From the NCBI GenBank assembly GCA_035461765.1, contig DATHUY010000096.1, positions 1-55,879 of the forward strand: DNA of 55,879 nt, in the 5' to 3' direction. The stretch is from Longimicrobiales bacterium (lineage in GTDB: Bacteria; Gemmatimonadota; Gemmatimonadetes; Longimicrobiales; RSA9). The stretch's first letter is position 1; each line of letters begins with the position of its first letter. Positions 305-16,026 of the stretch are shown one piece after another. The translations under genes and the position numbers were made by a program. The notes below the pieces were generated by a model. It had not been told where the DNA came from. It did not search any database and worked only from the letters and a program-made list of their open reading frames with translations.

Positions 305-309
305 GCCGA

Positions 310-2115
310 ATGGATCTTCGCAGGTTCGTCGACCTCTACGTCGCGGAGACGCACGAGAACATAAGACTGCTGCAGCGCAGTCTCGTGGCGCTGGAGACGG
401 ATGCGACCGACGCGGCCATCGCGGAGGCGTTCCGTGCGGCGCACACGTTGAAGGGCATATCGGCCGCCATGGGTTACACGACCGTGGCCGACATGGCCCA
501 CCGTCTCGAGGACCGCCTCGACGGCATCCGCGCCGGGACACTGAGCGCCGACGGCGCTGTCGTGGACGCGCTGCTGGCCGCGGCGGACGAGCTCGAGGAT
601 GCGATCGGCGACGCAATCCGCACCGGCCCTTCGCCCGTAGATGGCGCGGCCGCACCCGGCGCCGGAGCTGAGACGCGTACCGGTTCCAGTGCGCCGGCAC
701 CTGCGGGCACGGTCCTGATCGCTCATGTGCGCCTGCGCGCTGACGCGCCGATCAAGAGTGCGCGCGCATCACTGGTCATGCGGGCTCTCGGCGATGCCGC
801 CGGTATACTCGGGTCGGACCCGGAACAGTTCGACGACGATTTCGACGGGTATCTGCGCATTTTCCTCGCTGCTTCAGCCGACGCCGCGGCAGCGGAGTCC
901 GCGATCCGGTCCGCGGGCGAGGTCGACACGGTCGAGATCGCGGCGCCGGTGGCCGGCCCGGCGCCTGAGGGCACCGGGAACGGCATGTCGACGGCACCGG
1001 TGCGGCAGGTGCGCGTGGATGCTCGGCGGCTGGACGGGCTCGCAGATGGTCTGGGTGAGCTGTCGGTCCTGTATGCCCGTCTGCAGCGCGCCGGTGTTCC
1101 CACGCAGGTGGGCGATATGGTGGACCGGCTGGGCACGGTGCTGGGCGAGCTGGATCACGAGATGCGCGCGCTGCGGATGGTGCCCGTGCGCGAGGTGTTC
1201 GAACGACTACCGCGTGTGATGCGTGACGCAGCGCGCTCCGTAGGGCGGGACGTGGATCTGGTTCTGGAGGGGGATGATGTCGAGCTGGATCGCTCGATTC
1301 TCGACGAGATCGGCGAGCCTCTCGTCCATCTGCTCCGGAACGCTGTGGACCACGGCATCGAGAGTCCGGCCGACCGCCGCCGGGCGGGCAAGCCGCCCCG
1401 CGGCCGCATCCGTGTATCGGCCGAACGGGAGCGGGGCAGTGTCCGTATCGTCATCGAGGATGACGGTCGTGGCGTGTCCGCCGAGCGCATGGCGGACAAG
1501 GCACGCAGTGCCGGGGTCTACGACCGCGCGGAGCCGCCCGCGACGGACGAGGAGCTGTTCAGGCTGATGAGCATGCCCGGTCTCTCGACCGCCTCGGAAG
1601 TCAGCGCGGTATCGGGGCGCGGTGTGGGCATGGACGTCGTCGTGAATCGGGTGCGGGCGCTCGGCGGCGCGATCGACATGCGCACGAATGCCGGTACGGG
1701 CACGACGTTCCGGATGCGGCTGCCGAACACGCTGGCGGTCGCACAGGCGCTGCGCATACGCGTCGGCGGCGAAGACTACGCAATACCGCTTACGCACGTA
1801 TCGGAGGCCATCGAGCTGGACGAGGCGGCGCTGAACGGGGCGGGTGATCTGTTGCGGGTGCGCAGCTACAGCGTGCCGCTCGTACGGCTGCGACGCGTCC
1901 TGCGCGTACAGGCCGAGGGCAGGGAATCGGCGGCTGTAATTGCCGAGATCGGCGATCGCCGGGCAGCGCTTGCTGTCGATGAGCTCGTCGGCCGCGAGCA
2001 GATTCTCGTGCGTACGTTCGATGCCGTCAGGGGAATGCTGCCGTTCTTCTCGGGTGCGACGCTGCTCGCCGACGGACGCCCAGCGCTGGTGCTGGATCCG
2101 CTGAGCATGATATGA
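310..2115 (+). CDS. cheA: Chemotaxis sensor histidine kinase CheA
   Basis: A 601-residue CheA with the full domain order. The P1/HPt domain is at about 1-105, with phospho-acceptor His45 in AHTLKG. A P2-like response-regulator-binding domain is at about 133-212, flanked by Ala/Pro/Gly linkers, then P3 dimerisation helices (about 230-300). The P4 ATPase has its N box at HLLRNAVDHG (Asn344), G1 at EDDGRG (about 383-388) and G2 at GRGVGMD (about 436-442). P5, the CheW-like coupling domain, is at about 470-601. The ATG at 310 is chosen because it opens the HPt domain; the frame stays open further upstream, but that part overlaps the cheY end and has no family match. The enzyme autophosphorylates on His45 and passes phosphate to CheY and CheB receivers. 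It overlaps cheC by 4 bases (ATGA), a sign of translational coupling. Confidence 0.96.
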   Translation: MDLRRFVDLYVAETHENIRLLQRSLVALETDATDAAIAEAFRAAHTLKGISAAMGYTTVADMAHRLEDRLDGIRAGTLSADGAVVDALLAAADELEDAIGDAIRTGPSPVDGAAAPGAGAETRTGSSAPAPAGTVLIAHVRLRADAPIKSARASLVMRALGDAAGILGSDPEQFDDDFDGYLRIFLAASADAAAAESAIRSAGEVDTVEIAAPVAGPAPEGTGNGMSTAPVRQVRVDARRLDGLADGLGELSVLYARLQRAGVPTQVGDMVDRLGTVLGELDHEMRALRMVPVREVFERLPRVMRDAARSVGRDVDLVLEGDDVELDRSILDEIGEPLVHLLRNAVDHGIESPADRRRAGKPPRGRIRVSAERERGSVRIVIEDDGRGVSAERMADKARSAGVYDRAEPPATDEELFRLMSMPGLSTASEVSAVSGRGVGMDVVVNRVRALGGAIDMRTNAGTGTTFRMRLPNTLAVAQALRIRVGGEDYAIPLTHVSEAIELDEAALNGAGDLLRVRSYSVPLVRLRRVLRVQAEGRESAAVIAEIGDRRAALAVDELVGREQILVRTFDAVRGMLPFFSGATLLADGRPALVLDPLSMI

Positions 2116-2738
2116 GGTCTACCATGGATCTGCGTGCGCTGGACCCCTCGCAGCTGGATGCCATGCGCGAGATTGCGAACATCGGTGCCGGCCATGCCGC
2201 GACGGCGCTGTCGAAGATGACGCACCGCGTCATCATGATCGACGTGCCCGAGGTCAGCATCATCCGGCTCGAGGATGTCGGCACTGTCACGGGTGAGGCG
2301 GATGACGTCGTTGCGGCCGTCATGATGAAGGTGCTAGGCGATGTCACCGGTCGTACGGTACAGATCTTTCCCGGCGACTCCGCGGTGAAGCTGGTCGGGA
2401 TGGTGTCGGCCGGGGAGGAGCCGGAATTTCCCGGTGGGTTCACCGATGCGCACCAGGAGACGCTGAAGGAGATCGGCAACATCATCGTGGGCGCATACCT
2501 GAACGCGCTATCGGAATTCATGGGGCTGCTGCTGATCATGTCCGTGCCCGCCATCGCGATCGATATGGCCGGCGCAGTGATGACCACGAGCTACCTCAAC
2601 TTCGGCGAAGAACAGGATCACGTGTTGTGCGTCAATACCGGAATGATCATCGGTGATGAGCGCATCCGCGGTCATTTTCTGCTCATCCCGGATGCGACGT
2701 CGCTTCAGATCATGCTACGGGAGATGAAGCTGGGCTGA
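2112..2738 (+). CDS. cheC: CheY-phosphate phosphatase CheC
   Basis: A 208-residue CheC-family protein with two pseudo-symmetric phosphatase motifs. The first reads D16-x3-E20-x2-N23-x22-P46, an exact match to the family consensus (Asp/Ser-x3-Glu-x2-Asn-x22-Pro). The second has Glu120, Asn123 and Pro146 at the same spacing but Glu at the first position. Both active sites therefore look usable, which is the CheC rather than the one-site CheX arrangement. Known role: dephosphorylation of CheY-P, stimulated by CheD binding. A CheD gene lies in the same operon at 13316. The start at 2112 overlaps the cheA stop (ATGA); an internal ATG at 2124 is a possible alternative and would remove four residues. 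Confidence 0.94.
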   Translation: MRSTMDLRALDPSQLDAMREIANIGAGHAATALSKMTHRVIMIDVPEVSIIRLEDVGTVTGEADDVVAAVMMKVLGDVTGRTVQIFPGDSAVKLVGMVSAGEEPEFPGGFTDAHQETLKEIGNIIVGAYLNALSEFMGLLLIMSVPAIAIDMAGAVMTTSYLNFGEEQDHVLCVNTGMIIGDERIRGHFLLIPDATSLQIMLREMKLG

Positions 2739-5410
2739 TGAACATGCAGTCTTCGCCGTCCAGCCCGACGACAATGCCGTGGTCCGATCGCGGCGACATC
2801 TCCCGCCACCCGGGTGCATCGCCGCGCTCCGAGCGCGACCTCGAGATTCTGCGCGCACTCGCGCGCCGTATCAACCCGCAGGATGCCGGTGCGCACAACA
2901 ACCTCGGCGTCGTCTTCTACAACAAGGGTCTGTACGACGAGGCGGTCAGCCATTTCGAGCACGCACTCGAGATCGATCCGCGCATGCAGGTCGCCGAACG
3001 CAATCTCCAGATCGCCTATTTCGGCACAGGCCATTTCGAGCGGCTGAGCGCCGAGCTGCGCCTGCGGCTGGAGGCGGATCCGACCGATGCAGAGGCGCGC
3101 GACCAGCTGGCACGCACGTATTTCAACAGCGGCGATCTGGAGAATGCCGTCCGCGAGCTGAACGCGCTGCTCGAAGTGACGCCGGACGACGCGGCGGTGC
3201 ATCAGCGACTCGCGCGGGCGGAGCTGAAGCGCGGCAACCTGGATGCCTCGCTGCGCGCGCTGCGTCGTGCCGAAGCGCTCGACGACGCGAATGCGCGCGT
3301 GAAGTTCATGATCGGCGAGGTGCAGTATCAGCGGGGGCTGAGCGTTGATGCGCGCGAGCCGCTCGAGCGTGCCATTGCACTCGACCCGGGTCTCGCGGAC
3401 GCCTATCACCTGCTGGCCTTCGTCTACGGCGATCTCGGTGACAACGACCGCGCGACGAAGACCGCGACGCGGGCCGCCGAACTGAATCCGAGCTATGCCA
3501 AGGCGGAGGCGGGGCTGTCGCTCGACAGCTACAGCACGGCACGGTATGAGGAGCTGGTGGGCGACCGTACCGGGAGTCAGCCGGAAGTCGCGGCGGGCGG
3601 AGAGCTCGCGCACTACAACCTCGGTCTGGCGTTCCGTCAGAAGGCGCTGTACGACGAGGCGCTGCGCGAGTTCCGGCTCGCGACGGAGCGCGGCGAGGAC
3701 CTGTTCCTGGTGCAGCAGGCGCAGGCGGAGATGATGCTGCTGCGCGGTGACAGTGCGGAATCCGTCGAGCTGTACCGATCGCTCATCGAGCACGAGCCGG
3801 GCAGCCCGAAGCTGTGGAACGAGCTCGGCGTCGCGAAGCATCAGACCGGTGCGCTCGACCAGGCCGAGGAAGCGTATCGGCGGTCCCTCGAGATCGACCC
3901 GGGCTATGCCCTCGCCTGGAACAACCTGGCGGTCGTGCGCCATCACCGGTCCGCCGCCGACGCGGAAGAGGCTTTCCGGGCCGCGCTGAAGGAAGGGCGG
4001 GCACTCGGTGACGCCTGGCGCAATTTCGCTCTCCTGCTGCACCGTCAGAGCCGGCGCGAAGAGAGCCTGGAGGCGTATGGGGCCGCGCTCGAGGCGGATC
4101 CGGCGTCTGCACAGGCGTATACGGGCAGCGGCATCCTGCTGCTGGAGATGGGCCGCGCCGAGGAGGCGCGCGAGCGGCTGCTGCGTGCGATCGAGCTGGA
4201 TCCGAACCTCGCGGAAGCGCGCTACCACCTGGCGTTCACTCTCTCAGCGCTCGGTGACTACACCGGTGCACTGCGTGAGACCAAGAACGCGCTGGATCTG
4301 AATCCGTACATCCCGACACCGCGGTTCCGGCTCCTGATCGACCTCCAGTATGAGGATGCCAGCGTGCTGGCACCGGAGCTGGATGTTGCCTCGCGCGTGG
4401 CGGGTGGTGATGTCATTGAGAGCTTCAACTTCAATCCTGACGCGCTCGACTCGCTGTTCGGCGGTGATGGCGACACGCCCGCGGCTGCGCCCGGGGCCTC
4501 GTCACAGGACTCGGTCGGCGATGGTCGCGAGCTGCTCGATGCCGCGCGCCAGGCGATGGATCGCGGCATGCTCGAGCTGGCTACGGCCGAAGCACAGCGC
4601 GCCGGGATATCCGGAGCGCCGCGCATTGACGCCCTGCTGCTCCAGGGTGAGATCTTCCTGCGCCGCGGTCTGTCCGGGGAAGCGGTGGACCGGTTCAATG
4701 ACGCGTTGGCGGAGATCACGCGAACCGACGTCAGCGACCACGACGGTCTATTGCGCCAGGCACTGCATGGCGCCGCGCGTTCCCTGCTCGACCTGGGGCG
4801 CATGGCCGAGGCCGTGGAGGCGGCGGAGCGCCTGTGCGAGCTCGCGCCCGGCGATGTCGAGGCCCTGCGCACACTGGGCGGCGTGCTCGGGCGAGTGGAG
4901 GACTTCGCGCGTGCCGCGCTGGTTCTGGAGCAGGCGCGGCAGGCTGCGCCCGACGACGTGCACCTGCTGACGGAGCTCGGCGCGGCGTACGCCGCGGCGG
5001 GGAATCACGAGCGTGCGCAGTCGACATTGCGCCGGGCCATTGCGAACGATGCAATGGCAGTAGCTGCACGGACGACGCTCGCGGGCGTGCTCGTGATGGA
5101 AGGCCGTCTGGAGGAGGCGGAGAATGAGTATCGCGCCGCGCTTCGTGTGCTGCCGAGCTATGGCGAGGCGGCGTTCGGGCTGACCGACCTGCTGGAGCGG
5201 CGCGGCCGAAGGCGTGATGCGCTGAATGTGCTCATCGATCTGCTCACGACAGATCCATACGCGATGGATGGACTGATGCGGCTGGCCGGCATTCTGGCGG
5301 AGGCGGGACACACGAACGAGGCGCGGCAGGCATATCGTCGCGTGCTGCGGTTCCAGCCGGACAATGAGGGAGCGGCCGTCGCATTGCGCGACCTCGGAGC
5401 CGAGAGCTGA
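2738..5410 (+). CDS. Large tetratricopeptide-repeat protein
   Basis: An 890-residue soluble protein made almost entirely of TPR units. Examples are AHNNLGVVFYNKGLYDEA near residue 50 and LWNELGVAKHQTGALDQAEE near 355, each followed by the typical ALEIDP-like turn. Two long TPR arrays are separated by a Gly/Asp/Pro/Ala-rich linker at about 573-592. There is no signal peptide or membrane segment, so it is probably cytoplasmic. It overlaps the cheC stop by one base (TGATG). TPR superhelices act as protein scaffolds; the position between CheC and the PATAN/Roadblock genes suggests it assembles the signalling complex of this operon (inference). No catalytic motif is visible, and I cannot assign it to a named family. 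Confidence 0.9.
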   Translation: MNMQSSPSSPTTMPWSDRGDISRHPGASPRSERDLEILRALARRINPQDAGAHNNLGVVFYNKGLYDEAVSHFEHALEIDPRMQVAERNLQIAYFGTGHFERLSAELRLRLEADPTDAEARDQLARTYFNSGDLENAVRELNALLEVTPDDAAVHQRLARAELKRGNLDASLRALRRAEALDDANARVKFMIGEVQYQRGLSVDAREPLERAIALDPGLADAYHLLAFVYGDLGDNDRATKTATRAAELNPSYAKAEAGLSLDSYSTARYEELVGDRTGSQPEVAAGGELAHYNLGLAFRQKALYDEALREFRLATERGEDLFLVQQAQAEMMLLRGDSAESVELYRSLIEHEPGSPKLWNELGVAKHQTGALDQAEEAYRRSLEIDPGYALAWNNLAVVRHHRSAADAEEAFRAALKEGRALGDAWRNFALLLHRQSRREESLEAYGAALEADPASAQAYTGSGILLLEMGRAEEARERLLRAIELDPNLAEARYHLAFTLSALGDYTGALRETKNALDLNPYIPTPRFRLLIDLQYEDASVLAPELDVASRVAGGDVIESFNFNPDALDSLFGGDGDTPAAAPGASSQDSVGDGRELLDAARQAMDRGMLELATAEAQRAGISGAPRIDALLLQGEIFLRRGLSGEAVDRFNDALAEITRTDVSDHDGLLRQALHGAARSLLDLGRMAEAVEAAERLCELAPGDVEALRTLGGVLGRVEDFARAALVLEQARQAAPDDVHLLTELGAAYAAAGNHERAQSTLRRAIANDAMAVAARTTLAGVLVMEGRLEEAENEYRAALRVLPSYGEAAFGLTDLLERRGRRRDALNVLIDLLTTDPYAMDGLMRLAGILAEAGHTNEARQAYRRVLRFQPDNEGAAVALRDLGAES

Positions 5411-5413
5411 TCG

Positions 5414-6541
5414 ATGGCGATCGAGGGGGCGCTCGCGGAGCTGAGCATCCAGGACGTGCTTCAGCTGCTCGAGCTGGCGCACAAGACGGGTGTACTGACG
5501 GTCCGGTCCGAGCGACTGAATGACGAAGCGATCGTCCATCTGTCGCGCGGTGCCATCGTGTTCGCCGTGCGGCGGCGCTCCACGCGGCGGCTCGGTCAGC
5601 TGCTGATTCGTGCGGGCAAGCTGACGCAGCGCGAGCTGGATCGTGCCCTCGAGCTGCAGCGCACCGATCCCACGCGGCGACTCGCCGAGATTCTGCTCGA
5701 GATGGGCAGTGTGGTCGAGGAGGAGCTGGAGCGTCAACTCCGGTTTCAGATGGAGGAGACGATCTATGAGGTCATGCCGTGGGATGAGGGGTACTTCAAG
5801 TTCGAGGAGCGCGGCGAGATCGGGGAGCAGCGGCTGCTGGCGCGCGTGCGCGTCGAATCTCTGCTCATGGAAGGCGCGCGCCGGATCGACGAGTGGACCC
5901 GGCTCGAGGCAAAGGTTCCGAGTCCCGAAGCAGTGCCGCTGCTCGCGGCCAACGCGGAGCGGGAGATGACTCCGCTGGAGCTGCGGTCCGACGAGTGGGA
6001 GGTGCTGGCGGAGATTGACGGTGAGCGCGACGTGCGCCAGCTGGCGGCGGATCTCGGCCGCTCCGCGTTCGATGTCGCGAAGATCGTTTACGGCCTGGTG
6101 AGCACCGGCGTACTGGAGGTGACCGAGCGGCTGACGCGGATCCCGGAACTGGAGCTGAAAGGCGCGGTGGCGGACGTGGAGACGCTGCTCGAGGCCGGCC
6201 GCGCCGAAGAGGCGCAGAAGCTGGCGGCACAGCTCGAGACATCGTTTCCGGAGCGCGCCGATCTGGCCGTGCTGTCGGGACGGGCACTTGTCGCGCAGAA
6301 CCGGATGCGGGCCGCGACCGAATCGTTCTCGCGCGCGGTCGGGCTCGACCCGCTGGCCATGGATGCGCATTACCTGCTCGGCTTCGCGGCGATTCGCACG
6401 GGCGAGCTCGAGCGGGCGACAAAGGCATGGGAGACGTTCCTGCGGCTGGCGCCGAACGGTGAGCCGAGACAGCTCGCCGCTCAGGCACTGGCTTCGCTGC
6501 GCGCGCTGACGCAGGTGGTGCGGCGCGTGATGACGAATTGA
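5414..6541 (+). CDS. PATAN (DUF4388) domain protein with C-terminal TPR
   Basis: A 375-residue protein. Residues 1 to about 155 match the PATAN/DUF4388 domain first described at the N-terminus of the cyanobacterial response regulator PatA. It starts MAIEGALAELSIQDVLQLLE, has a beta-rich GVLTV segment, a helical insertion (LGQLLIRAGKL) and a closing strand-rich stretch with YFKFEERGE. A short winged-helix-like region follows (about 190-235, DVRQLAADLG), then TPR-like helices (about 245-365). A paralogue with the same layout lies at 10772. PATAN domains are known mainly from signalling proteins in genomes with MglA-type GTPases and Roadblock proteins, which fits the neighbours here. Molecular function is unknown. 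Start ATG 5414 lies 3 bases after the previous stop. Confidence 0.9.
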   Translation: MAIEGALAELSIQDVLQLLELAHKTGVLTVRSERLNDEAIVHLSRGAIVFAVRRRSTRRLGQLLIRAGKLTQRELDRALELQRTDPTRRLAEILLEMGSVVEEELERQLRFQMEETIYEVMPWDEGYFKFEERGEIGEQRLLARVRVESLLMEGARRIDEWTRLEAKVPSPEAVPLLAANAEREMTPLELRSDEWEVLAEIDGERDVRQLAADLGRSAFDVAKIVYGLVSTGVLEVTERLTRIPELELKGAVADVETLLEAGRAEEAQKLAAQLETSFPERADLAVLSGRALVAQNRMRAATESFSRAVGLDPLAMDAHYLLGFAAIRTGELERATKAWETFLRLAPNGEPRQLAAQALASLRALTQVVRRVMTN

Positions 6542-6545
6542 GACG

Positions 6546-7556
6546 ATGAAAGTACCGGCACAGGCAGACATGCAGCGCTGGAGCGAGGAGGTGGCGCGCG
6601 ATCCGCGCTCGCTCGCGTTTCTTCCCCTGGCACGGGCCTATCGCAAGCAGGGCCTGCGCGATGCGTCACTGCAGCTATGTCTGCGCGGGCTGGAGGCCCA
6701 TCCGAATCACATCGAAGGACACGGCCTGCTCGCCATGCTGTACCTCGATGCCGGTGACCACCAGAAGGCCGCGGACGAATGGTCGATGGTACTGCGCGTG
6801 GACACCGAGAACTTCGAGGCGCTGCGCGGCATGGGATTCTGCTTCCTCGAGCAGGACCGACTGAGCCGGGCCCGCCAGATGCTCGAGCGCGCCGCCCTCA
6901 TCCGGCCGGCCGATCCGACGGTCCAGGAGGCGCTGCGCGTGCTCGGCACGCGGCAGGAGATCGCCGAGAAAGGCCTGTCGTCGTCGACCGACGTCGCGTT
7001 CAGCGACGACCCGTGGTCGGCCTACGACAGCGGGCCGGTCTTCATGTTCGACCCCGGCGAGGGCGATGCCGGGGCGGGGAGCGGCGCCGAACCAGCCGAT
7101 ACGCCGGAGGAGACTGCCGTGCCGGCGCAGAGCGAGCCGGCTCGTGCGCCCGTCCCGCGCGCCGTCCCGCTGACGGGTCCCCTTCCGCTGGACCCGACAC
7201 TTCTGTTCGATGATCTGCTCAGCGCCGGTCCGCTGCTGGGGGCGTTGCTGGTCGACGTGAACGGGCTGGTGCTGGCGGGACGCCTGACGGAGGCGATGCG
7301 CGGCGATTCGGCCATCCTCGGCGCCGTACTGGGCGGTGCGATCGGTGAGGCGACAAGAACGTCGCATCACCTGGCACTGGGGACATGGCGCGGAATCCTG
7401 CTCGATTCGCAGCATGCGCTGTTGCACCTGGCTCCGGCGGGCAACGACGCGGTGATGGTCCTGGCCGCACGGCGCGACGCGCCCGCAGGCTGGGTGATGC
7501 GTGCATCGGCGCATGCGATCGGGCAGGCGCAGCAGTACATGGAGGAGTACGCATGA
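6546..7556 (+). CDS. TPR-Roadblock/LC7 fusion protein
   Basis: A 336-residue two-part protein. Residues 1 to about 140 are TPR-like helices (SLAFLPLARAYRKQGLRDAS and following). Residues 145-215 are a low-complexity Asp/Gly/Pro/Ala/Glu linker. Residues about 222-336 form a Roadblock/LC7 domain, with LLGALLVDVNGLVLAG as the typical beta hairpin and a hydrophobic strand VMVLAARRDA before the last helix. Roadblock domains (MglB, dynein light chain) are known to bind Ras-like GTPases and, in MglB, to stimulate GTP hydrolysis. This copy is the first of three consecutive Roadblock genes just upstream of the mglA-like gene. The fusion may tether a GTPase regulator to the TPR scaffold (inference). 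It overlaps the next gene by 4 bases. Confidence 0.88.
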   Translation: MKVPAQADMQRWSEEVARDPRSLAFLPLARAYRKQGLRDASLQLCLRGLEAHPNHIEGHGLLAMLYLDAGDHQKAADEWSMVLRVDTENFEALRGMGFCFLEQDRLSRARQMLERAALIRPADPTVQEALRVLGTRQEIAEKGLSSSTDVAFSDDPWSAYDSGPVFMFDPGEGDAGAGSGAEPADTPEETAVPAQSEPARAPVPRAVPLTGPLPLDPTLLFDDLLSAGPLLGALLVDVNGLVLAGRLTEAMRGDSAILGAVLGGAIGEATRTSHHLALGTWRGILLDSQHALLHLAPAGNDAVMVLAARRDAPAGWVMRASAHAIGQAQQYMEEYA

Positions 7557-7900
7557 ACCAGCTCATGAGTGCAGCCGTGGAGCGCGTCAGCAGGGTGGCG
7601 GGTGTACGCGGTGTGCTGCTTGTCGAGAGTGAGGCGGGCGTTCCAGTGGTGTCGGAGCTGCGCGAGGGCGTGAATGAGACGGCCGTGGCAGCGCTCGCCG
7701 CGTCGCTGTTCCGTCGCACCTCGGCCGCGAGTGAGACGGCCGATTTCGGCCGGCTCAATACTCTGCAGCTGGAAGCGGACGATGGTCATGTCGTCGCGGT
7801 GGATGCGGGGGATCTCATCCTGGTGGTGATCGCGGAGCGCGATGCACAGCTCGGCCTGGTTCGCTACGAGGCTCATCGCGCGGCGGAATCGCTGGCATGA
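7553..7900 (+). CDS. Roadblock/LC7 domain protein (MglB-like)
   Basis: A 115-residue stand-alone Roadblock/LC7 protein. Its pattern is helix 1 (VERVSRVAGV), hairpin GVLLVESEAGVPVVSE, helix 2 with Ala-rich AALAASLFRR, strand HVVAVDAGDLILVVIAE, and a final helix with LGLVRYEAHRAAE. Size and order match the MglB/LC7 fold. The start is the ATG at 7553, overlapping the previous stop by 4 bases; open frame further upstream is only read-through of GC-rich DNA. MglB proteins act as GTPase-activating partners of MglA, so this is a plausible GAP or co-GAP for the GTPase at 8388 (inference from family and position). Whether it homodimerises or pairs with the next gene product cannot be seen. Confidence 0.88.
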   Translation: MNQLMSAAVERVSRVAGVRGVLLVESEAGVPVVSELREGVNETAVAALAASLFRRTSAASETADFGRLNTLQLEADDGHVVAVDAGDLILVVIAERDAQLGLVRYEAHRAAESLA

Positions 7901-8388
7901 GAGGCGCCGAGCTGCCGCGCCTGGTCGACGCGCTGCGCGGTCCGATCCGGGTATTCGTGCGCGAGTCGCGCGCGCGCATCGCGCTGCTCGTCAGCGGCGC
8001 CGGCCAGGTGCTGGCACAGCATGGCTTCGCACGCGGCTACCATGTGATGAACGTGGCGTCGCTCGCCGCAGCGACACACGCGTCTTCGCGAGCCCTGGCG
8101 ACACTGTCGGGAGCGGGACGGTGGGAGCACCTGTACCACGGCGGTCGCGAGCGGCAGCTCTTCCTGGCGCCGCTTCGTACGCCGGTCGAGGAGCTGATTC
8201 TCGTGGTCATCTTCGATGCCGACTCATCGCTCGGCATTGTCAGGCTGTTCTATGAGAATCTCGAAAAGGAAGTTGCGGCGCTGCCGGAGTTTCAGGACAG
8301 ACCGGACCGCGCCGACCATGCGAGCTTCGAGCAGGATCTCGAGGCGGGCCTGGAGTATACGTCCCCGGAAGCAGCAAGCGAGGACTGA
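7897..8388 (+). CDS. Roadblock/LC7 domain protein with C-terminal extension
   Basis: A 163-residue Roadblock/LC7 protein. The core has RIALLVSGAGQVLAQHGF as the first hairpin, LAAATHASSRALATLSG as the helical segment, and ELILVVIFDADSSLGIVRLF as the last strand and start of the last helix. An acidic tail of about 30 residues (EFQDRPDRADHASFEQ and beyond) follows and has no recognised domain. It starts inside the stop of the previous Roadblock gene and ends one base into the mglA-like gene (TGATG). The immediate mglB-like/mglA-like arrangement resembles the mglBA pair of Myxococcus and Thermus, suggesting this protein contacts the GTPase directly. Function is inferred from family and context only. 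Confidence 0.86.
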   Translation: MRGAELPRLVDALRGPIRVFVRESRARIALLVSGAGQVLAQHGFARGYHVMNVASLAAATHASSRALATLSGAGRWEHLYHGGRERQLFLAPLRTPVEELILVVIFDADSSLGIVRLFYENLEKEVAALPEFQDRPDRADHASFEQDLEAGLEYTSPEAASED

Positions 8389-8996
8389 TGTCGCTGGTCA
8401 ACTACTCCACTCGGGAGATCACCTGCAAGATCGTCTATTACGGTCCCGGCCGGTCGGGCAAGACGAGCAATCTGCAATACGTGCACAGCTATGTGCCAGA
8501 GGAGCGCAAGGGACCGATGGTCTCGCTGGCAACGGAGACCGATCGTACGCTGTTCTTCGATTTCCTGCCCCTCGACCTGGGCACCATTTCCGGGTTCCGC
8601 ACGCGCATGCAGCTCTACACGGTGCCCGGCCAGGTTTACTACAATGCGACACGCAGACTCGTGCTGCGCGGCGCGGACGGTGTGGTGTTCGTGGCGGACT
8701 CGCAGCCGGAGCAGTGGGACGAGAACATCGAGAGCCTGCGCAACCTGCACGAGAACCTGCTCGGGGAAGACATCGACCTGAAGACGTTTCCGATGGTCAT
8801 CCAGTACAACAAGCGTGACCTGCCGGGCGTGCTGCCGATCGCGCAGCTCGATGATACACTCAACTTCCGCGGCGTACCCGCGTTCCCCGCGGCCGCGGTG
8901 ACGGGTGAGGGTGTGTTCGACACGCTGAAGTCCGCGAGCAAGCTGGTCCTGCAGAGCCTGTCGCGCAGGTTCGGTCAGGAGATAAGGCATCCTTGA
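8388..8996 (+). CDS. mglA: MglA-family Ras-like small GTPase
   Basis: A 202-residue GTPase matching the MglA family over its whole length. The P-loop is GPGRSGKT (19-26). The switch region has Arg53 in ETDRT followed by LFFDFLPLDLG, the switch II motif is VPGQ with Gln82, and the base-recognition motif is NKRD (141-144). Arg53 and Gln82 fall at the same positions as the catalytic pair described for Myxococcus/Thermus MglA, so GTP hydrolysis looks intact. MglA-GTP marks a cell pole and controls motility or pilus machines in Myxococcus, with MglB as GAP. Here it follows three Roadblock genes and sits inside a chemosensory operon, so its nucleotide state or location may be set by the Che pathway (inference). 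Confidence 0.93.
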   Translation: MSLVNYSTREITCKIVYYGPGRSGKTSNLQYVHSYVPEERKGPMVSLATETDRTLFFDFLPLDLGTISGFRTRMQLYTVPGQVYYNATRRLVLRGADGVVFVADSQPEQWDENIESLRNLHENLLGEDIDLKTFPMVIQYNKRDLPGVLPIAQLDDTLNFRGVPAFPAAAVTGEGVFDTLKSASKLVLQSLSRRFGQEIRHP

Positions 8997-9009: not shown

Positions 9010-10770
9010 ATGACGCCCGACAGCATGTCGCTCGGGCTCGACCCGCGGAACACGTTCGACAGCTATATCGTCGGCACGGCCAACCGTCTCGCGGCGGCTG
9101 CCGCGAAGCGTGTCGCGGAAGCGCCGGGCGCTGCCTACAACCCGCTGTTCCTGTATGCGGAGTCCGGCCTGGGCAAAACGCACCTGATCATGGCGATCGG
9201 CAATCACATCCATCGCGTGCACGAGAACATCGAGGTCGTTTACGACACGCTCGAGCACCTGATGGAAGGCGTGATGGAGGCCATCCAGGCAGGTGATCGC
9301 GATGCGTTCCGTGCTCGTCTGCGCGGCGCATCGGTGCTGCTGCTCGACGACGTGCAGTTCCTGGCCGGTCGGCGCGGTGCTCAGGAGGAGCTGTTGCGCT
9401 CGTGGGACGCGCTGACCGCCCGGGGCGGACAGGTCGTGCTCGCGAGCGATCGGCCGCCGGCGGAGATCGACGGGCTCGATCAGCGGCTGCTGTCACGGTT
9501 CTCGGGTGGCCTCATGGCGGACCTGAGCGTGCCGGACTACGAGACGCGCGTCGCCATCGCGCGCCACAAGGCCGAGGAGCGTGGGCACCTGCTGTCGGCG
9601 GGCGTGGCCGAGGCGCTGGCAAAGCATGCCTTCGGCAACGTGCGCGAGTTGCAGGGCGCGCTGAACCGGATCATCGCGGTGCAGGAGCTCGACCGGCGGC
9701 CGGTGAGTGCAGAAGAGGTGGCTGACCTGCTGGGCCGGCCTGCGGAGCTTAGCGGCCGCGACGAGTTCGGTTCGTTCATGGAGGAGGTCACGGGCACGCT
9801 CGGCCAGGCGATCCCTCCCGCGACACCCGAGCAGCGGATCGCCGATGCGGTCCTGCGGTGGGAGGCTGAAGGGTACCGGACGCGGAAGCTCGAGGCGGTG
9901 CTCGATGAGGAGCTGACGGACGAGGCGGCCGACGAGCTGCTGGCAAACTTCGAGGAGACGGTCACCCGGCTGCGCGACATTGCGGCGAAGATCCGTGAGC
10001 TCGATCCGGCCGCGTCGGAGCTTTCACGCCTCGACGTGCTGCGCAATCCCGATCGTATCGAGGAGGCGGAGTCCATCCTCGAGCAGGTGCGCGAACGCAT
10101 GCGTCCGCTTCCGCCGGCGCCCGACGAGCCGCGCTTCGAGCAGCTGACACTCGATCGCGAGCTGCTGGCCGTCAGGGCGGCGCGCGCCGTCGCGCAGCAG
10201 CCGGGTGACCGCTACAACCCCTTCTTCGTCCACGCGCCGGCGGGTGCTGGCAAGACATCGCTCGTCACGGCACTCGCGCTGCTCTTCAGGGAACGGGATC
10301 GCGACGCCGAGATCGGGTTCCTCACGGGTGAGGACTTCGCGGCCGAACTGATCGGCGCCCTGAAGCGCAATCAGGTCGACAGCTGGCGTGCGCGCTACCG
10401 CCGGGCGCGACTTCTCATCATCGATGGCATCGACCCGCTGGGGCAGACGGAGCGCGCGCAGGAGGAGCTGTTCCATTTCTTCGATAATGCCCGGCGCGCC
10501 GGTGTGCAGCTCGTCTTCACTGCGGACCGGCCGCCGCACGAGCTCAGTGGATTCGAGGACCGTCTGCGGACACGGCTGGAAAGCGGCCTGGTGGTGGACC
10601 TGAAGCCGTCGGCGCCGGATGAGAGGCTGGGCGCGGAGCTCGATGAGGTCGCAGAGAACGAGGGGGCTGGCGAGCCGGACCTCCAGGTCGATGACTGGTT
10701 CCTGAACCGCGAGAAGCTGCTGTGGCATTGGCCCTACCTGCAGGACAGTCTCGTGCAGGATCTGGAGTAG
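9010..10770 (+). CDS. Tandem DnaA-like AAA+ protein
   Basis: A 586-residue protein with two DnaA-type AAA+ modules. Module 1 (about 14-245) is close to DnaA domain III: NTFDSYIVGTANRLA, Walker A ESGLGKTH (51-58), Walker B LLLDDVQF (110-117), LLSRFSGGLMADL (160-172) and the lid motif NVRELQGALNR (210-220). A helical linker with RWEAEGYRTRKLE and coiled-coil-like segments spans about 270-365. Module 2 (about 377-535) has Walker A PAGAGKTS (410-417) and Walker B LIIDG (469-473). Its second acidic residue is replaced by Gly and the lid is missing. There is no DnaA domain IV helix-turn-helix, so it should not bind DnaA boxes. A Trp-rich C-terminal tail (WFLNREKLLWHWPYL) ends the protein. This is not the chromosomal initiator. 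ATG 9025 is an alternative start. Role unknown. Confidence 0.88.
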   Translation: MTPDSMSLGLDPRNTFDSYIVGTANRLAAAAAKRVAEAPGAAYNPLFLYAESGLGKTHLIMAIGNHIHRVHENIEVVYDTLEHLMEGVMEAIQAGDRDAFRARLRGASVLLLDDVQFLAGRRGAQEELLRSWDALTARGGQVVLASDRPPAEIDGLDQRLLSRFSGGLMADLSVPDYETRVAIARHKAEERGHLLSAGVAEALAKHAFGNVRELQGALNRIIAVQELDRRPVSAEEVADLLGRPAELSGRDEFGSFMEEVTGTLGQAIPPATPEQRIADAVLRWEAEGYRTRKLEAVLDEELTDEAADELLANFEETVTRLRDIAAKIRELDPAASELSRLDVLRNPDRIEEAESILEQVRERMRPLPPAPDEPRFEQLTLDRELLAVRAARAVAQQPGDRYNPFFVHAPAGAGKTSLVTALALLFRERDRDAEIGFLTGEDFAAELIGALKRNQVDSWRARYRRARLLIIDGIDPLGQTERAQEELFHFFDNARRAGVQLVFTADRPPHELSGFEDRLRTRLESGLVVDLKPSAPDERLGAELDEVAENEGAGEPDLQVDDWFLNREKLLWHWPYLQDSLVQDLE

Positions 10771-10771
10771 C

Positions 10772-12394
10772 ATGGCGATCAAGGGCAGTCTCAAGGAAGC
10801 GAGCCTGGCGGACGTATGCCAGCTCCTCGCGCTCGGTCAGAAGTCCGGCTGCCTCTCCGTGGCGGATGGCTCGCGTTTCGGTCAGATCTATTTCGAGCGC
10901 GGCCGCATCACGTACGCCCGTATCGTCAACCGTCGCGACCGGCTGGGTGACATTCTGGTCAGGGAGGGCGTGCTGGCACAGCGCCAGCTCGAGCAGGTCC
11001 TCGAGCACCAGGCCCGTGAGCCCGATCGCCGGGTGGGCGAGCTTCTCGTTTCCTACAATCACATAACGAAGTCGGAGCTGAAGCATTACATCCGGCTGCA
11101 GATCGAAGAGGCGATCTACCACCTGTTCACGTGGTCGCGCGGCAACTTCTTCTTCGAGCCCGACGCCACGCCGGATGAAGCGGATTTCGTCGTCACGATC
11201 AATCCGGAGAGCCTGCTGCTCGAGGCCGCTCGTCGCGTCGACGAGTGGAGCATGATCGAGAAGAAGATCCCGTCGCTCGATCTGCTGTTCGACGTCGAGC
11301 ATGATCGCGTGCGTGCTTCCCATGTGCAGCTGACGCCCGAACAGGAGCAGATCCTGCCGCTGGTCGATGGAACGCGGACCGTGCAGGAGGTCGCGGATCA
11401 GACACGGCTCGCGGAGTTCGATGTCGGCAAGGCGCTGTTCGGTCTGATCCAGGCCGGCTTCGCCCATCGCGTGGGGCGCAAGGCCGAAGAAACGGTGCGC
11501 GGGCGCGAGGCTGAGCTGCAGGAGCGACGGAATCTCGGCGTCGCATTCTACCGTACGGGAATGCTCGAGGATGCGTCCCGCGAATTCGATCGAGTGCTCG
11601 AGCTGGACGACCGCGACTTCGTCGCACGCTACCACCTCGCTCTCATCGGCATGCGTGAGCAGCGGTATCGTGATGTGGTGCGCCAGCTCCGGCTGCTGCT
11701 CGAGGAGCGCGGTGCGCACTACGGCGCATTCGTGAACATGGCCCTCGCCCTTCGCTGGCTCGAGCGGCCGGCCGACGCGCTGCTCGTGCTCGACGAGGCG
11801 GAGGCCGTGAAGCCGGGCATGGCAGCGACGGAGCTCGCGCGCGGCATCGCTCTGCTCCATACCGGGCGCTACTTCCAGGCGCGCTCGGCATTCGATGAAT
11901 ATCGCGCGCGACTGAAACCGGATACGCGACCCGCCGCGGACTACTTCTACTTCGGCGCGCTCAACCTGGCCGCGATGGATCAGCTGAACGAAGCGGAAGC
12001 GCTGGTCGCGCAGGGCCTCGACAGCTATTCGGATTCGGCACCGCTGCTGCTGCTGCTGGGTGTCATCAGCGAGCGGCGCGGCGACCTCGAGAACGCCGAC
12101 CGCTCGTATCGGCACGCGCTCGATGAGGACCCGACGCTCGCACAGGCGCACAAGAACCTCGGCGATGTGGCGTACCGCCGCGCGTCGCATGAAGAGTCGC
12201 TCCAGCACTACCTGCGCGCCGCGGAGCTGGATCCGCGCCTCGGCGATGACGTGTTCGCCCGCATCGGTAACCTCTACTACAAGGCTCGCAGCTTCGATTC
12301 AGCCGTGCAGTACTGGCAGAAGGCGCTGCAGCTGAATCCTGACAACGCGATCGTCCGCAATAATCTGGAGATCGTCGCCAATGCTTCCGGGTGA
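10772..12394 (+). CDS. PATAN (DUF4388) domain protein with long TPR array
   Basis: A 540-residue paralogue of the 5414 product. Residues 1 to about 155 are PATAN/DUF4388 (MAIKGSLKEASLADVCQLLA, hairpin SGCLSV, then YFERGRITYARIV and the helical insertion LGDILVREGVL). About 190-240 is a winged-helix-like segment (TRTVQEVADQTRLAEFDVGK). About 245-540 is an array of TPR units such as HKNLGDVAYRRASHEESLQH. It lacks a signal peptide. The start lies one base after the AAA+ stop, and the end overlaps cheR by 14 bases. As with the other PATAN protein, it may link upstream signalling to an assembly platform. No enzymatic motif is visible. Confidence 0.9.
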   Translation: MAIKGSLKEASLADVCQLLALGQKSGCLSVADGSRFGQIYFERGRITYARIVNRRDRLGDILVREGVLAQRQLEQVLEHQAREPDRRVGELLVSYNHITKSELKHYIRLQIEEAIYHLFTWSRGNFFFEPDATPDEADFVVTINPESLLLEAARRVDEWSMIEKKIPSLDLLFDVEHDRVRASHVQLTPEQEQILPLVDGTRTVQEVADQTRLAEFDVGKALFGLIQAGFAHRVGRKAEETVRGREAELQERRNLGVAFYRTGMLEDASREFDRVLELDDRDFVARYHLALIGMREQRYRDVVRQLRLLLEERGAHYGAFVNMALALRWLERPADALLVLDEAEAVKPGMAATELARGIALLHTGRYFQARSAFDEYRARLKPDTRPAADYFYFGALNLAAMDQLNEAEALVAQGLDSYSDSAPLLLLLGVISERRGDLENADRSYRHALDEDPTLAQAHKNLGDVAYRRASHEESLQHYLRAAELDPRLGDDVFARIGNLYYKARSFDSAVQYWQKALQLNPDNAIVRNNLEIVANASG

Positions 12395-13319
12395 GCGGCC
12401 ACGACCGGGCACCAGGCAGCAGGACAGCGCGCACGCATCCCGACCGGCCCCCGCGGACGGCAGTGAGCGCCTGCTCACGCCGGTGCCTCCGCTTCCGCTC
12501 GCCCACGGCGACCTGAGTGAGACCGACGCCGCCGAACTGCGTGCGCTGAAGCAGCAGATCCAGTCGAGCGTGGGGTTTTCCTGCAACGGTTACAAGGAGC
12601 GCTGTCTGCGGCGCCGCATCGCCGTACGGATGCGAGCACGGGGCGTGCACACATACCGCGATTACGGGACGCTTCTGAGTGCCGATGGCGCCGAGTACGA
12701 GCGGCTGGTGGACACGCTGACGATCAATGTGAGCAAGTTCTACCGCAATCCCGAAGTGTGGGAGATGCTGACACGCCGAATACTGCCGGATCTGTGTGCG
12801 CGGCCCGATCCGGTCATTCGCATCTGGAGTGCTGGCACCGCCAGTGGCGAGGAGGCTTACTCCGCATCGATCATGGTGCAGGAGTATGCGCAGGAGCACG
12901 GCGAGGATTGCGGCCGCTTCGACATCCTGGGAACGGACATCGATCGCGACAGCCTGGCGTATGCCGCGCGTGCGGAATACACGGACTTTGCGATGACGGA
13001 CATCGATCCTGAGCTGAGGGATCGCTGGTTCGAGCATGACGGACTGCACCGCCTCCGGACCGAAGCGCGGCGCAACGTCCGCTTCGAGACGCTCGATCTC
13101 ATTCGCGATCCGTTCCCGAATAATCAGCATCTGATTTTCTGCCGCAATGTGATCATCTACTTCGAACGTGCGGTGCAGGAGGACCTGTTCCGGCGTTTCC
13201 ACGAGGCGCTCGTGCCGGGCGGTATCCTGGTGCTCGGCAAAGTCGAAGCGCTGTTCGGTTCACCCGCCGGACTGTTCCAGTCGCTGGCAAACCGCCAGCG
13301 CATCTTCCGCAGGGCATGA
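12381..13319 (+). CDS. cheR: Chemoreceptor methyltransferase CheR
   Basis: A 312-residue protein with an N-terminal extension of about 50 low-complexity residues and then the CheR fold. The alpha-helical N-domain has GYKERCLRRRIAVRMRARG, and the SAM-binding Rossmann domain has IRIWSAGTASGEEAYSAS and LGTDIDRDSL. FCRNVIIYF is the signature strand near the active site. Known role: SAM-dependent methylation of receptor glutamates, opposed by CheB. The receptor substrate is not in this window. The ATG at 12381 overlaps the previous gene by 14 bases; a later start would trim the extension, which has no match of its own. cheD begins inside the cheR stop (ATGA). Confidence 0.94.
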   Translation: MLPGERPRPGTRQQDSAHASRPAPADGSERLLTPVPPLPLAHGDLSETDAAELRALKQQIQSSVGFSCNGYKERCLRRRIAVRMRARGVHTYRDYGTLLSADGAEYERLVDTLTINVSKFYRNPEVWEMLTRRILPDLCARPDPVIRIWSAGTASGEEAYSASIMVQEYAQEHGEDCGRFDILGTDIDRDSLAYAARAEYTDFAMTDIDPELRDRWFEHDGLHRLRTEARRNVRFETLDLIRDPFPNNQHLIFCRNVIIYFERAVQEDLFRRFHEALVPGGILVLGKVEALFGSPAGLFQSLANRQRIFRRA

Positions 13320-13855
13320 CGGACGAGAAGCGGCGCTCGCGGCGTATCCTGGCGGAGTTCCGTGCGGAGGCGGTGGATCACGTGCCGGTCCATATCGGCG
13401 ATGTGAAAGTGGCGGACGGGTCGAGCCTGCTGTTCACTGTCGGCCTCGGCTCCTGTGTGGCGATCGCCCTGTACGACCCCTATGAGCGCATCGGCGGTCT
13501 GGCGCACGCCATGCTGCCCCACCCGGATACCGGCCGGCGGGATGCGCCTCCCGGCCGGTTCGCGACCACGGCCGTCAGCGCGCTCGTCGAATCGATGGAG
13601 GTGCGTGGTGCATCACGAAGACGGTTGTACGCCAGACTCGCGGGCGGCGCCTCGATGTTTCGCGACATTCTCGATCGTGAAGGGCTGAAGCTGGGCCGGC
13701 GCAATGTCGACGCCGCACACGACGCGCTGTCGAGCCTGGGCATTCCGGTCCGGGGTGAGGATGTGCTCGGGACGTATGGCCGCTCCGTGTTCCTGCGCAC
13801 CAGTGATGGTCAGCTTCTGGTCACCTCCGTGAACCACGACGATGTCCTCATCTGA
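13316..13855 (+). CDS. cheD: Chemoreceptor glutamine deamidase CheD
   Basis: A 179-residue CheD. The catalytic triad is visible with exact family spacing: Thr41 and Cys47 in FTVGLGSCVA, and His64 in GGLAHAMLP. Thr-to-Cys is 6 residues and Cys-to-His 17, as in Thermotoga CheD. Known roles are deamidation of receptor glutamines to glutamates and binding to CheC, where it stimulates CheY-P dephosphorylation. CheC is present at 2112, so both functions can operate here. The gene overlaps cheR by 4 bases and cheB by 14 bases, forming a compact adaptation block (R-D-B). Confidence 0.95.
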   Translation: MTDEKRRSRRILAEFRAEAVDHVPVHIGDVKVADGSSLLFTVGLGSCVAIALYDPYERIGGLAHAMLPHPDTGRRDAPPGRFATTAVSALVESMEVRGASRRRLYARLAGGASMFRDILDREGLKLGRRNVDAAHDALSSLGIPVRGEDVLGTYGRSVFLRTSDGQLLVTSVNHDDVLI

Positions 13856-14921
13856 GCGCCGCGTGCGCCGCGTCCTGATCGCGGATGACAGTGAGCTGAT
13901 GCGGTCCATGCTGCGCGAGCAGATCATGCACACGGGCGGCTTCGAGATTGCCGGTGAAGCGGCGACGGGGTACCAGGTGATCCGAATGGTGCACGAGCTC
14001 GATCCGGACATCATTACACTGGATCTCGCGATGCCCGATCTCGGCGGCGTCGAGGCACTCGACTACATACTGAGTCAGGCTCCCCGTCCGGTGATCATCA
14101 TCTCCGCGCACGACCGCAGCCTGGCGGATCCCGCGCTCAATGCCATGGTCTCCGGCGCCGCCGTCGAGTTCGTGACCAAGCCGAACGGCAGCTCGATCGA
14201 GGAAGCGGTCGCGTTCCGTAACCGTCTCTATCAGGCCCTCCGCGCCGCTGCGGTGGCGCATCTTCTGAATCTGCCGCGCCGCATTCAGCTGGCACAGAGC
14301 AAGGTGCCCCGAGCACCGGGTACTGCTCCCCCTGCGCGCTGCGCCGTAGTGATCGGTGCGTCGACAGGCGGGCCGCGCGCATTGGCCGAGATCGTACCCC
14401 GGCTCGCCGCGGACACGCCGGCCGCCGTATTCATCGTGCAGCACATGCCGCCGCTGTTCACATCGGCGTTCGCGCGGCGGCTCGATCAGATCTGCGCACT
14501 CCCGGTGCGCGAGGCGGAGGATGGCGAGACCGTGCACGAGGGTGTGGTATACGTGGCGCGCGGCGGGTTCCATCTCGATCTGCAGCGCGATGCGGGTGAA
14601 GTGCGCATCGTGCTGAGCGATGCAGCACCCGTCTGGAATGTGAGGCCGGCCGCCGACGTGCTGTTCCGCGCAGTCGCGCGCACGTTCGGTCCTGCGAGCG
14701 TGGGCGTGGTTCTGACGGGCATGGGACGCGATGGTGCCGACGGCCTCAGAGCCATCGCAGAAGTTGGAGGCAGCACCCTCGCGCAGGACGAGGAATCGAG
14801 TGTCATCGCAAGCATGCCGCGGGCGGCGGCGCCTCATGCGCAGCGGATTGTCAGTCTGAGCGAGCTCGGCGGCGAGATAGTGCGACAGGCGTTGCTGCGC
14901 TCGCGTGCGCGGGCTGGATGA
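13842..14921 (+). CDS. cheB: Chemotaxis methylesterase CheB
   Basis: A 359-residue two-domain protein. The receiver domain (about 8-130) has the acidic pair Asp15/Asp16, phospho-acceptor Asp61 in TLDLAMPDLGG and the conserved Lys in VTKPNG. The methylesterase domain (about 168-355) has the catalytic triad Ser174 in GASTGGP, His201 in VQHMPP and Asp297 in GMGRDGAD. Phosphorylation by CheA relieves inhibition by the receiver and activates removal of receptor methyl groups, giving adaptation feedback. It is the last recognisable member of the signalling operon. The next gene starts 50 bases downstream and may or may not be cotranscribed. Confidence 0.95.
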   Translation: MSSSERRVRRVLIADDSELMRSMLREQIMHTGGFEIAGEAATGYQVIRMVHELDPDIITLDLAMPDLGGVEALDYILSQAPRPVIIISAHDRSLADPALNAMVSGAAVEFVTKPNGSSIEEAVAFRNRLYQALRAAAVAHLLNLPRRIQLAQSKVPRAPGTAPPARCAVVIGASTGGPRALAEIVPRLAADTPAAVFIVQHMPPLFTSAFARRLDQICALPVREAEDGETVHEGVVYVARGGFHLDLQRDAGEVRIVLSDAAPVWNVRPAADVLFRAVARTFGPASVGVVLTGMGRDGADGLRAIAEVGGSTLAQDEESSVIASMPRAAAPHAQRIVSLSELGGEIVRQALLRSRARAG

Positions 14922-14970: not shown

Positions 14971-16026
14971 GTGACTGCGGGCACCGCCCGATTCGTGCGT
15001 GCGGGCATCCTGCTGCTCGCGACGGTGCTCCTGAGCGGGCAGGCCGCGGCGCAGCAGGGTGATGTACGGCGCGGCGATGTGGTGATCCGTCACTGGCCGG
15101 GGCAGGCGCGGCTGGCCGAGTCGCTGCTGCCGCCCGAGACCGGTCTGAGCTTTCGTGGACTGCCGCCGGATGTGCTTCAGCGCGGCAGTGATGTGATCGT
15201 ATTCCTGGCGCCCGATCCTGCCCGGTTCGACTCGCTGACGGGCGGGCGGGCGCCGGAGTGGGGCGCAGGCGTCGCCATGCCGCAGGCCGGCATTATTGTC
15301 ATTCCGGGTTACGTCTCGTCGCGAACGGGAACGCACGAGCTGCCGCAGATCCTGCGACACGAGCTCGCGCATGTGGCTTTGCAACGGCACCTCGGCAGTG
15401 CGCTCGTCCCGCGCTGGGTCACGGAGGGATACGCGACGTGGTCGGCCGGTCAGCTCGACGTGGACGCCGGGTGGCAGCTCCGGCTCGCGCTGGCGACGAA
15501 GCGCGCCCCGCCACTGGACTCGCTCACGCTGGACTGGCCGCTGCTCGCAACGGACGCGCGCATTGCCTACCTGCTGTCGGCCAGTGCAGTGCAGTACCTG
15601 TACACGCTCGGCACGCCAGAGACGTTCGAGCGCTTCCTCGCGACCTGGGCGGAGTCCGGCGACTTCGAGGCGTCCCTTCGGGAGATCTATGTCCTGTCGT
15701 CGCCCCAGTTCGAGCGCCTCTGGCGTGCCCATGTGAAGCGGCGCTTCGGCTGGCTTCAGGTGCTTGCGCAGACCGCGTTCATCTGGGTCATTGCCACCAT
15801 GCTCGTTCTCGCGCTCTTCGTCATCCGGCGTCGGCGCGACCGGCGGCGACTCGACCAGCTGCGCGCTACCGAACTACCCGACTCCCCGGCGTACTGGATG
15901 GAGAACGGCGATTCTGAAGGCGGATTCGCGTCCGGTCATGACGCTCCGCGCCCGGACGTGCCGCCCGGTCCTGAGCGGTCACCGGATGCAGGTGGGGAAC
16001 CGCCGCCGCGGCACCCGCCCGGATAG
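14971..16026 (+). CDS. Membrane-anchored gluzincin metallopeptidase (peptidase MA-like)
   Basis: A 351-residue envelope protein. An N-terminal signal peptide (RAGILLLATVLLSGQAAA) precedes an extracytoplasmic domain with the zinc motif HELAH (130-134) and a downstream Glu152 in RWVTEGYATW. This HExxH-x-E layout is typical of gluzincins and the peptidase MA family. A single transmembrane segment at about 264-285 (FIWVIATMLVLALFVI) is followed by a basic stop-transfer and a Pro/Gly/Asp-rich cytoplasmic tail. Start is the GTG at 14971, the first codon giving the complete signal peptide. Substrate is unknown. Its position 50 bases after cheB may be coincidental. Confidence 0.82.
   Translation: MTAGTARFVRAGILLLATVLLSGQAAAQQGDVRRGDVVIRHWPGQARLAESLLPPETGLSFRGLPPDVLQRGSDVIVFLAPDPARFDSLTGGRAPEWGAGVAMPQAGIIVIPGYVSSRTGTHELPQILRHELAHVALQRHLGSALVPRWVTEGYATWSAGQLDVDAGWQLRLALATKRAPPLDSLTLDWPLLATDARIAYLLSASAVQYLYTLGTPETFERFLATWAESGDFEASLREIYVLSSPQFERLWRAHVKRRFGWLQVLAQTAFIWVIATMLVLALFVIRRRRDRRRLDQLRATELPDSPAYWMENGDSEGGFASGHDAPRPDVPPGPERSPDAGGEPPPRHPPG

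Follow-up and report, generated by a model that had tools for sequence, protein, structure and literature searches.

A tandem DnaA-type ATPase lacking the DNA-binding domain of DnaA and retained beside MglA-type polarity and chemosensory genes in Gemmatimonadota

Hda consists of DnaA domain III without domain IV, and DnaA itself binds single strands of DNA as an ATP-dependent filament. To our knowledge, the DnaA-derived proteins of known role (DnaA, Hda, DnaC, and IstB) all act on replication or on DNA. DnaA domain III (PF00308; structures 8btg, 8bv3, and 2z4r) shares its fold and motifs with the protein described here. Unlike DnaA, this protein lacks domains I, II, and IV, has two modules per chain with an additional middle domain and tail, is changed in module 1 at the position that contacts single-stranded DNA (ssDNA), and is encoded in a polarity and chemosensory operon. 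Hda is also a DnaA-type AAA+ protein with no DNA-binding domain, but the tandem architecture and the gene context set the two apart. The DnaC, DnaI, and IstB proteins are comparable in that a DnaA-related AAA+ core assists another machine, whereas the tandem protein has neither an N-terminal helicase-binding domain nor a transposase context.

The closest described gene neighborhoods are those of the MglA/MglB-Frz system of Myxococcus and of PATAN proteins, where MglA, Roadblock, PATAN, TPR, and Che genes are found together as they are here. PATAN genes near MglA genes have been reported earlier (PMC4316618), and PilB1, a pilus motor, is a binding partner of the cyanobacterial PATAN response regulator (PATAN-REC) PixE (PMC9090330). 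The present operon differs in its DnaA-type ATPase, a kind of protein that the survey of MglA gene contexts does not mention (0 occurrences of DnaA in PMC4316618), and our literature search found no paper tying DnaA-like proteins to MglA.

The window we analyzed is a stretch of 55,879 nucleotides from a Longimicrobiales bacterium (GCA_035461765.1, contig DATHUY010000096.1), and all of its genes described here are on the forward (+) strand. The open reading frame at 9010..10770, taken from the ORF list, is real and encodes a 586-aa protein with tandem DnaA domain III modules (PF00308 twice, TIGR00362). In a search of the whole genome, the Bac_DnaA profile PF00308 matched this protein twice, once with 178.8 bits (E 2.5e-52) and once with 136.4 bits (E 2.8e-39). 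Because the cut-off for this profile is 23 bits, chance is excluded for both matches. The DnaA-box-binding domain IV (PF08299) had no match in the protein in the Pfam search. In the source genome, PF08299 was found only at a separate, normal dnaA (C163), which also has PF00308. Domains I and II are absent as well, since module 1 begins at approximately residue 9. Two DnaA-type ATPase modules in one chain and the loss of domain IV had both been proposed in the original prediction and were upheld by these searches. However, that two-module description overlooked two conserved parts, a middle domain (residues ~271-375) and a tail at the C terminus (residues ~562-586).

Based on the alignment of relatives and an AlphaFold2 model, the order of the domains is module 1, a disordered linker, a helical middle domain, module 2, a second disordered stretch, and the tail. 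The two modules were modeled with confidence; the pTM was 0.50, with the linker disordered and the relative placement of the modules not fixed. Module 1 is a complete DnaA-type AAA+ module (residues ~9-243, 9034..9738) followed by the flexible linker (residues ~244-270, 9739..9819), which had a pLDDT of about 47-51. The middle domain (9820..10134), delimited by the alignment and AlphaFold2, carries the motif W-E-x-E-G-Y-R-T-x-x-L-E. Sequence and fold searches found no Pfam or PDB relative of this domain, with no Foldseek match at E ≤ 0.001 and a best VIA Z of 4.2 among 30 chains, and it was not found on plasmids. At E ≤ 0.001 it is present in 177 of 298 Gemmatimonadota genomes, as a single copy in 176 of these, and the matches fall inside the tandem gene wherever coordinates could be compared. 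By these comparisons, the middle domain is lineage-specific. Module 2 (residues ~376-536, 10135..10617) is a DnaA-type AAA+ core that lacks the lid, as judged from the alignment and residue tables. The tail (residues 562-586, 10693..10767; ...NREKLLWHWPYLQDSLVQDLE) is predicted to form a short helix. It has the motif EK..W.W...EE, and an alignment of 46 sequences shows almost no variation at E568, W574, and E583. The tail departs from the rule in a few relatives (L088, L100).

We compared the tandem gene with that of a congener (L034). This gave dN/dS values of 0.016 for each of the two modules, 0.125 for the middle domain, 0.195 for the linker, and 0.187 for the tail. Among the neighboring genes, the values were 0.026 for mglA and 0.041 for PATAN2, and both modules are thus lower than mglA. 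On these ratios, both AAA+ modules are under strong purifying selection.

The operon is tightly packed, with several genes overlapping, and has the order cheA-cheC-TPR-PATAN1-TPR/Roadblock-Roadblock-Roadblock-mglA-tandem gene-PATAN2-cheR-cheD-cheB-peptidase. Domain searches identified cheA (181..2115; Hpt, P2, kinase, and CheW domains), a cheC/cheX-type phosphatase (2112..2738), and a syntenic 890-aa TPR protein (2738..5410). Profile matches identified PATAN1 (5414..6541; DUF4388, c-di-GMP motif, and TPR), a TPR-Roadblock protein (6546..7556), and two Roadblock/LC7 (MglB-like) proteins at 7553..7900 and 7897..8388; the ORF of the first of these two opens at 7385 with 7553 as the likely start. 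The mglA gene for an MglA-type small GTPase (8388..8996; ORF list and profile matches) ends 13 bp before the tandem gene. PATAN2 (10772..12394), which has DUF4388 (PATAN), an MshE-type c-di-GMP motif, and TPR, starts 1 bp after the stop of the tandem gene. It is followed by cheR (12381..13319), cheD (13316..13855), and cheB (13842..14921), each with a profile match, and by a peptidase-MA-domain protein (14971..16026; domain search and synteny), which closes the cluster and persists even where the mgl and che genes are lost. Both PATAN1 and PATAN2 exceed the curated cut-off for the MshE-related c-di-GMP-binding motif (43.0 and 42.2 versus 38 bits), which suggests that c-di-GMP is an input to these PATAN/TPR proteins. 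The source genome (G000) has a second MglA-type GTPase match elsewhere, and relatives have copies with ~60-64% identity outside the operon.

The gene order is kept across families of the class. In the first 20 neighborhoods, mglA is directly upstream of the tandem gene in 18 and PATAN2 is downstream in all 20. Outside family f2, the tandem gene nearly always has mglA as its immediate upstream neighbor. In other genomes (L154-L164), the operon follows the division-cluster genes yggS-divIVA-pnp-ileS-lspA-rluD as a super-cluster conserved across the class. In family f2, the che and mgl genes are missing from the site and rluD-tandem gene-PATAN2-peptidase is still in place, the conserved end of the cluster included. 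The same is seen in a genome from another family (G057, L189), where the mgl and che genes are gone too and a reduced tandem gene stays between rluD and PATAN2-peptidase. By contrast, genera g43 and g65 (L102-L105) have an MglA operon with no tandem gene, and there the PATAN gene that follows mglA is strongly diverged (31-33% identity).

We then counted co-occurrence across the 298 genomes, calling the tandem gene by its middle domain. PATAN2 is present in 177/177 tandem-gene genomes and an MglA is also present in 177/177; these counts ignore shared ancestry and adjacent genes may be lost together. PATAN2 is found with no tandem gene in 28 genomes. The PATAN2 match is strong in only nine of them, and several of those represent contig ends or split or reduced forms. 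MglA is found with no tandem gene in 55 genomes. The tandem gene is therefore not essential to such pathways. In f2, a hand count gave 25 genomes with the tandem gene (24 by middle domain), 25/25 of which have PATAN2 and an MglA elsewhere, and 48 genomes lacking the tandem gene, of which 0 have PATAN2 and 11 have MglA. Because the f2 gene is away from the mgl and che genes yet adjoins PATAN2, PATAN2 rather than MglA looks to be the closest partner. This refines the original prediction that the protein was recruited to a GTPase/chemosensory complex: the upstream mglA and the conserved order fit this proposal, but the partner looks to be the PATAN protein. Almost every genome of the phylum has PilT-family genes, so their co-occurrence is uninformative about a link to type IV pili.

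Four architectures were found among relatives: module 1-middle domain-module 2-tail; module 1-middle domain-tail (f3, f9, and some f5); middle domain-tail (L195); and module 1-tail (L189). The tail is the sole part common to all of the reduced forms seen, and PATAN2 is the next gene downstream in the loci read. For these two reasons, we infer that the tail is a candidate docking peptide for PATAN2. The AAA-less form in L195 (7193-7782) consists only of the middle domain and tail and is located between mglA and PATAN2. With no AAA+ module in this form, ATP use is dispensable in that one genome.

Together, these data are consistent with the idea that the tandem protein is a DnaA-derived, ATP-controlled adaptor that has left replication and works with PATAN2 in a pathway for cell polarity or surface motility, an explanation to which we give about an even chance. 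A direct role of the tandem protein on MglA, where it would be a regulator or effector of MglA through its AAA+ modules acting on MglA or on Roadblock proteins with PATAN2 being incidental, is unlikely. The adjacency of mglA and the presence of an MglA in all 177 tandem-gene genomes speak for such a role, and the f2 genomes do retain another MglA away from the tandem-gene site. However, at the f2 and G057 sites the tandem gene and PATAN2 stay together with no MglA, Roadblock, or Che genes, and MglA operons exist that have no tandem gene.

The residues of module 1 bear on a second alternative, that the protein regulates replication. The Walker A motif of module 1 is GLGKTH (K56) and its Walker B motif is LLLDDVQ (D113 D114); the module also carries the box VII arginines R159 and R163 and the sensor-2 lid NVRELQGALNR (R212), so that the intact Walker motifs and lid described originally are confirmed by the residue tables. 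It superimposes on Bacillus subtilis DnaA (8btg) with a VIA Z of 31.3 and an rmsd of 1.5 Å over 237 residues, with 42% identity. Residue counts were made on 59 distinct double-module proteins after duplicates were removed. In these, module 1 keeps the equivalent of K178 (the Walker A lysine) in 56/56 with letters at this position, D235/D236 (the Walker B DD) in 58/58, the arginines equivalent to R281 in 58/59 and R285 in 54/59, and the sensor-2 R334 in 58/58. The initiator-specific helices are retained with no gaps. Nine single-module forms keep Walker A and B in 9/9, and the R281 equivalent in only 3/9. The V211 position, an ssDNA contact in DnaA, is I or V in 31/31 true DnaA proteins. Module 1 of the double-module proteins, by contrast, has other residues there (H in 40, T in 6, M in 4, A in 3, Q in 2, and N in 1) and in no case I or V.

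As a comparison, the Hda-type clamp-binding motif (QLSLPL in Escherichia coli Hda) is in no protein of the tandem family and there is no N-terminal extension. The tandem protein scores below the Hda equivalog cut-off for TIGR03420 (146.4 versus 194.8 bits). The missing clamp motif and this low score rule out that the protein is Hda. The DnaC/DnaI/IstB profiles are also weak relative to their cut-offs (IstB, 69.7 versus 200 bits; DnaI, 39.3 versus 228 bits).

If the protein regulated replication, its modules might join DnaA in assemblies at oriC, or they might promote hydrolysis of DnaA-ATP as Hda does, thereby coupling replication to polarity or division. The retained assembly residues R281 and R285 and gapless initiator-specific helices of module 1, the location of the cluster beside divIVA-ileS-lspA-rluD, and the precedent of Hda as a domain III protein lacking domain IV are in keeping with this. 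Yet the clamp motif and N-terminal extension are absent, the ssDNA-contact residue of module 1 is replaced, the tandem gene is strictly linked to PATAN2 and MglA, the form with the middle domain and tail alone exists, and many genomes with no tandem gene still keep dnaA. We therefore consider a role in replication improbable.

The origin of the two modules was determined from a tree of 107 domains comprising module 1, module 2, the single-module forms, 30 Gemmatimonadota DnaA proteins, E. coli DnaA, and E. coli Hda. All module 2 sequences are on one side of a branch (support 96/99), and all module 1 sequences group together with the single-module forms (100/99). These two clades join (94/89) apart from the 30 Gemmatimonadota DnaA proteins and E. 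coli DnaA, which points to one ancient tandem duplication and supports the family being old. E. coli Hda is on a very long separate branch. A recent duplication of the chromosomal dnaA, which had been named as an outcome that would count against the original prediction, is ruled out because the modules fall into old clades of their own. Within the module 1 clade, the single-module forms branch at three separate positions, and module 2 was therefore probably lost several times; these nested positions also disfavor a single-module form as the ancestral state. One contig scan for relatives using a single narrow pattern matched only Gemmatimonadetes/Gemmatimonadota, and relatives may exist elsewhere.

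In module 2 of the window protein, Walker A reads GAGKTS (K415) and Walker B reads LLIIDGID (D472 G473); the arginine fingers R518 and R522 are present and there is no lid. This module was thus correctly described as degenerate here, but this is not general since module 2 of relatives is mostly intact, with Walker B DD in 50/59 and the lid in 43/59. Similarly, the pairing of one active with one inactive site agrees with the residues in the window protein and some other lineages, whereas module 2 looks, from the residue counts, to have been intact and active ancestrally and to have decayed in some lineages only. Both arginine-finger arginines are kept in 58/59 proteins each. They are kept in 6/6 of the module 2 sequences that have no Walker A (five from f2 and one from f1), and Walker B is lost as well in the five from f2. 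Thus, an asymmetric arrangement of one intact site and one degenerate site with an arginine finger is seen fully in five distinct f2 proteins. It is seen only partly in the window protein, where module 2 keeps Walker A and is without the lid and the second aspartate of Walker B. A degenerate module 2 that retains its arginines is what would be expected of an arginine-finger donor. The two sites may form an internal dimer, as the original prediction had it, with the modules packed across a composite ATP site; the AlphaFold2 model (pTM 0.50, linker pLDDT about 50) speaks neither for nor against this, and relatives with a single module occur.

It is doubtful, and in our view quite improbable, that module 2 is simply a decaying remnant in a protein that is becoming a single ATPase with no special use for it. 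Module 2 is missing from relatives at three points in the tree (f3, f9, and L112 in f5) and the lid is lost in 16/59, but in the window lineage module 2 is 97.5% identical to that of the congener, on par with module 1, and the arginine fingers are kept in 58/59. With the dN/dS of module 2 equal to that of module 1, relaxed constraint and decay do not account for the odd DG of Walker B in this lineage. It is very improbable that the protein still works on nucleic acid through module 2, whether by binding single strands or as a transcription factor. Module 2 does have I or V at the V211 position in 55/59 proteins, and at the K243 and R245 positions its residues are mostly basic, but there is no domain IV, module 2 has been lost several times, and its nucleotide site is gone in f2, whereas ssDNA binding by DnaA occurs as an ATP-dependent filament.

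We return to the adaptor working with PATAN2. According to this explanation, module 1 would bind and hydrolyze ATP, and module 2 would mainly supply arginine fingers to module 1, or act as its pseudo-ATPase partner, in the same chain or in another one. PATAN2 would dock on the tail, perhaps with help from the middle domain, and the ATP state of the tandem protein would set when PATAN2 acts. Judged from PATAN and MglA proteins in other systems, the likely output would be to control type IV pili or some other polar machine. In its boldest form, the proposal is that a DnaA-type ATPase has left DNA metabolism: a tandem DnaA domain III switch with an adaptor domain and a docking tail of its own would drive a PATAN effector in a polarity pathway of Ras-like GTPase and chemosensory proteins, so that a DnaA-fold protein would serve signal transduction and neither nucleic acid nor the replisome. 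We consider this proposition evenly balanced. The adaptor model is readily testable since natural losses of each part already exist.

From comparative genomics within the 298 Gemmatimonadota genomes, this is an ancient tandem DnaA-type ATPase that has dropped its DNA-binding part and has been kept for a very long time beside MglA-type polarity and chemosensory genes. If the adaptor model is true, a class-wide descendant of DnaA in a polarity operon would show the capacity of this ATPase fold for exaptation to signaling, and it would add a nucleotide-controlled component to MglA/PATAN systems. With its divIVA neighborhood and DnaA-like surface, it may also provide a link between the cell-cycle machinery and polarity.
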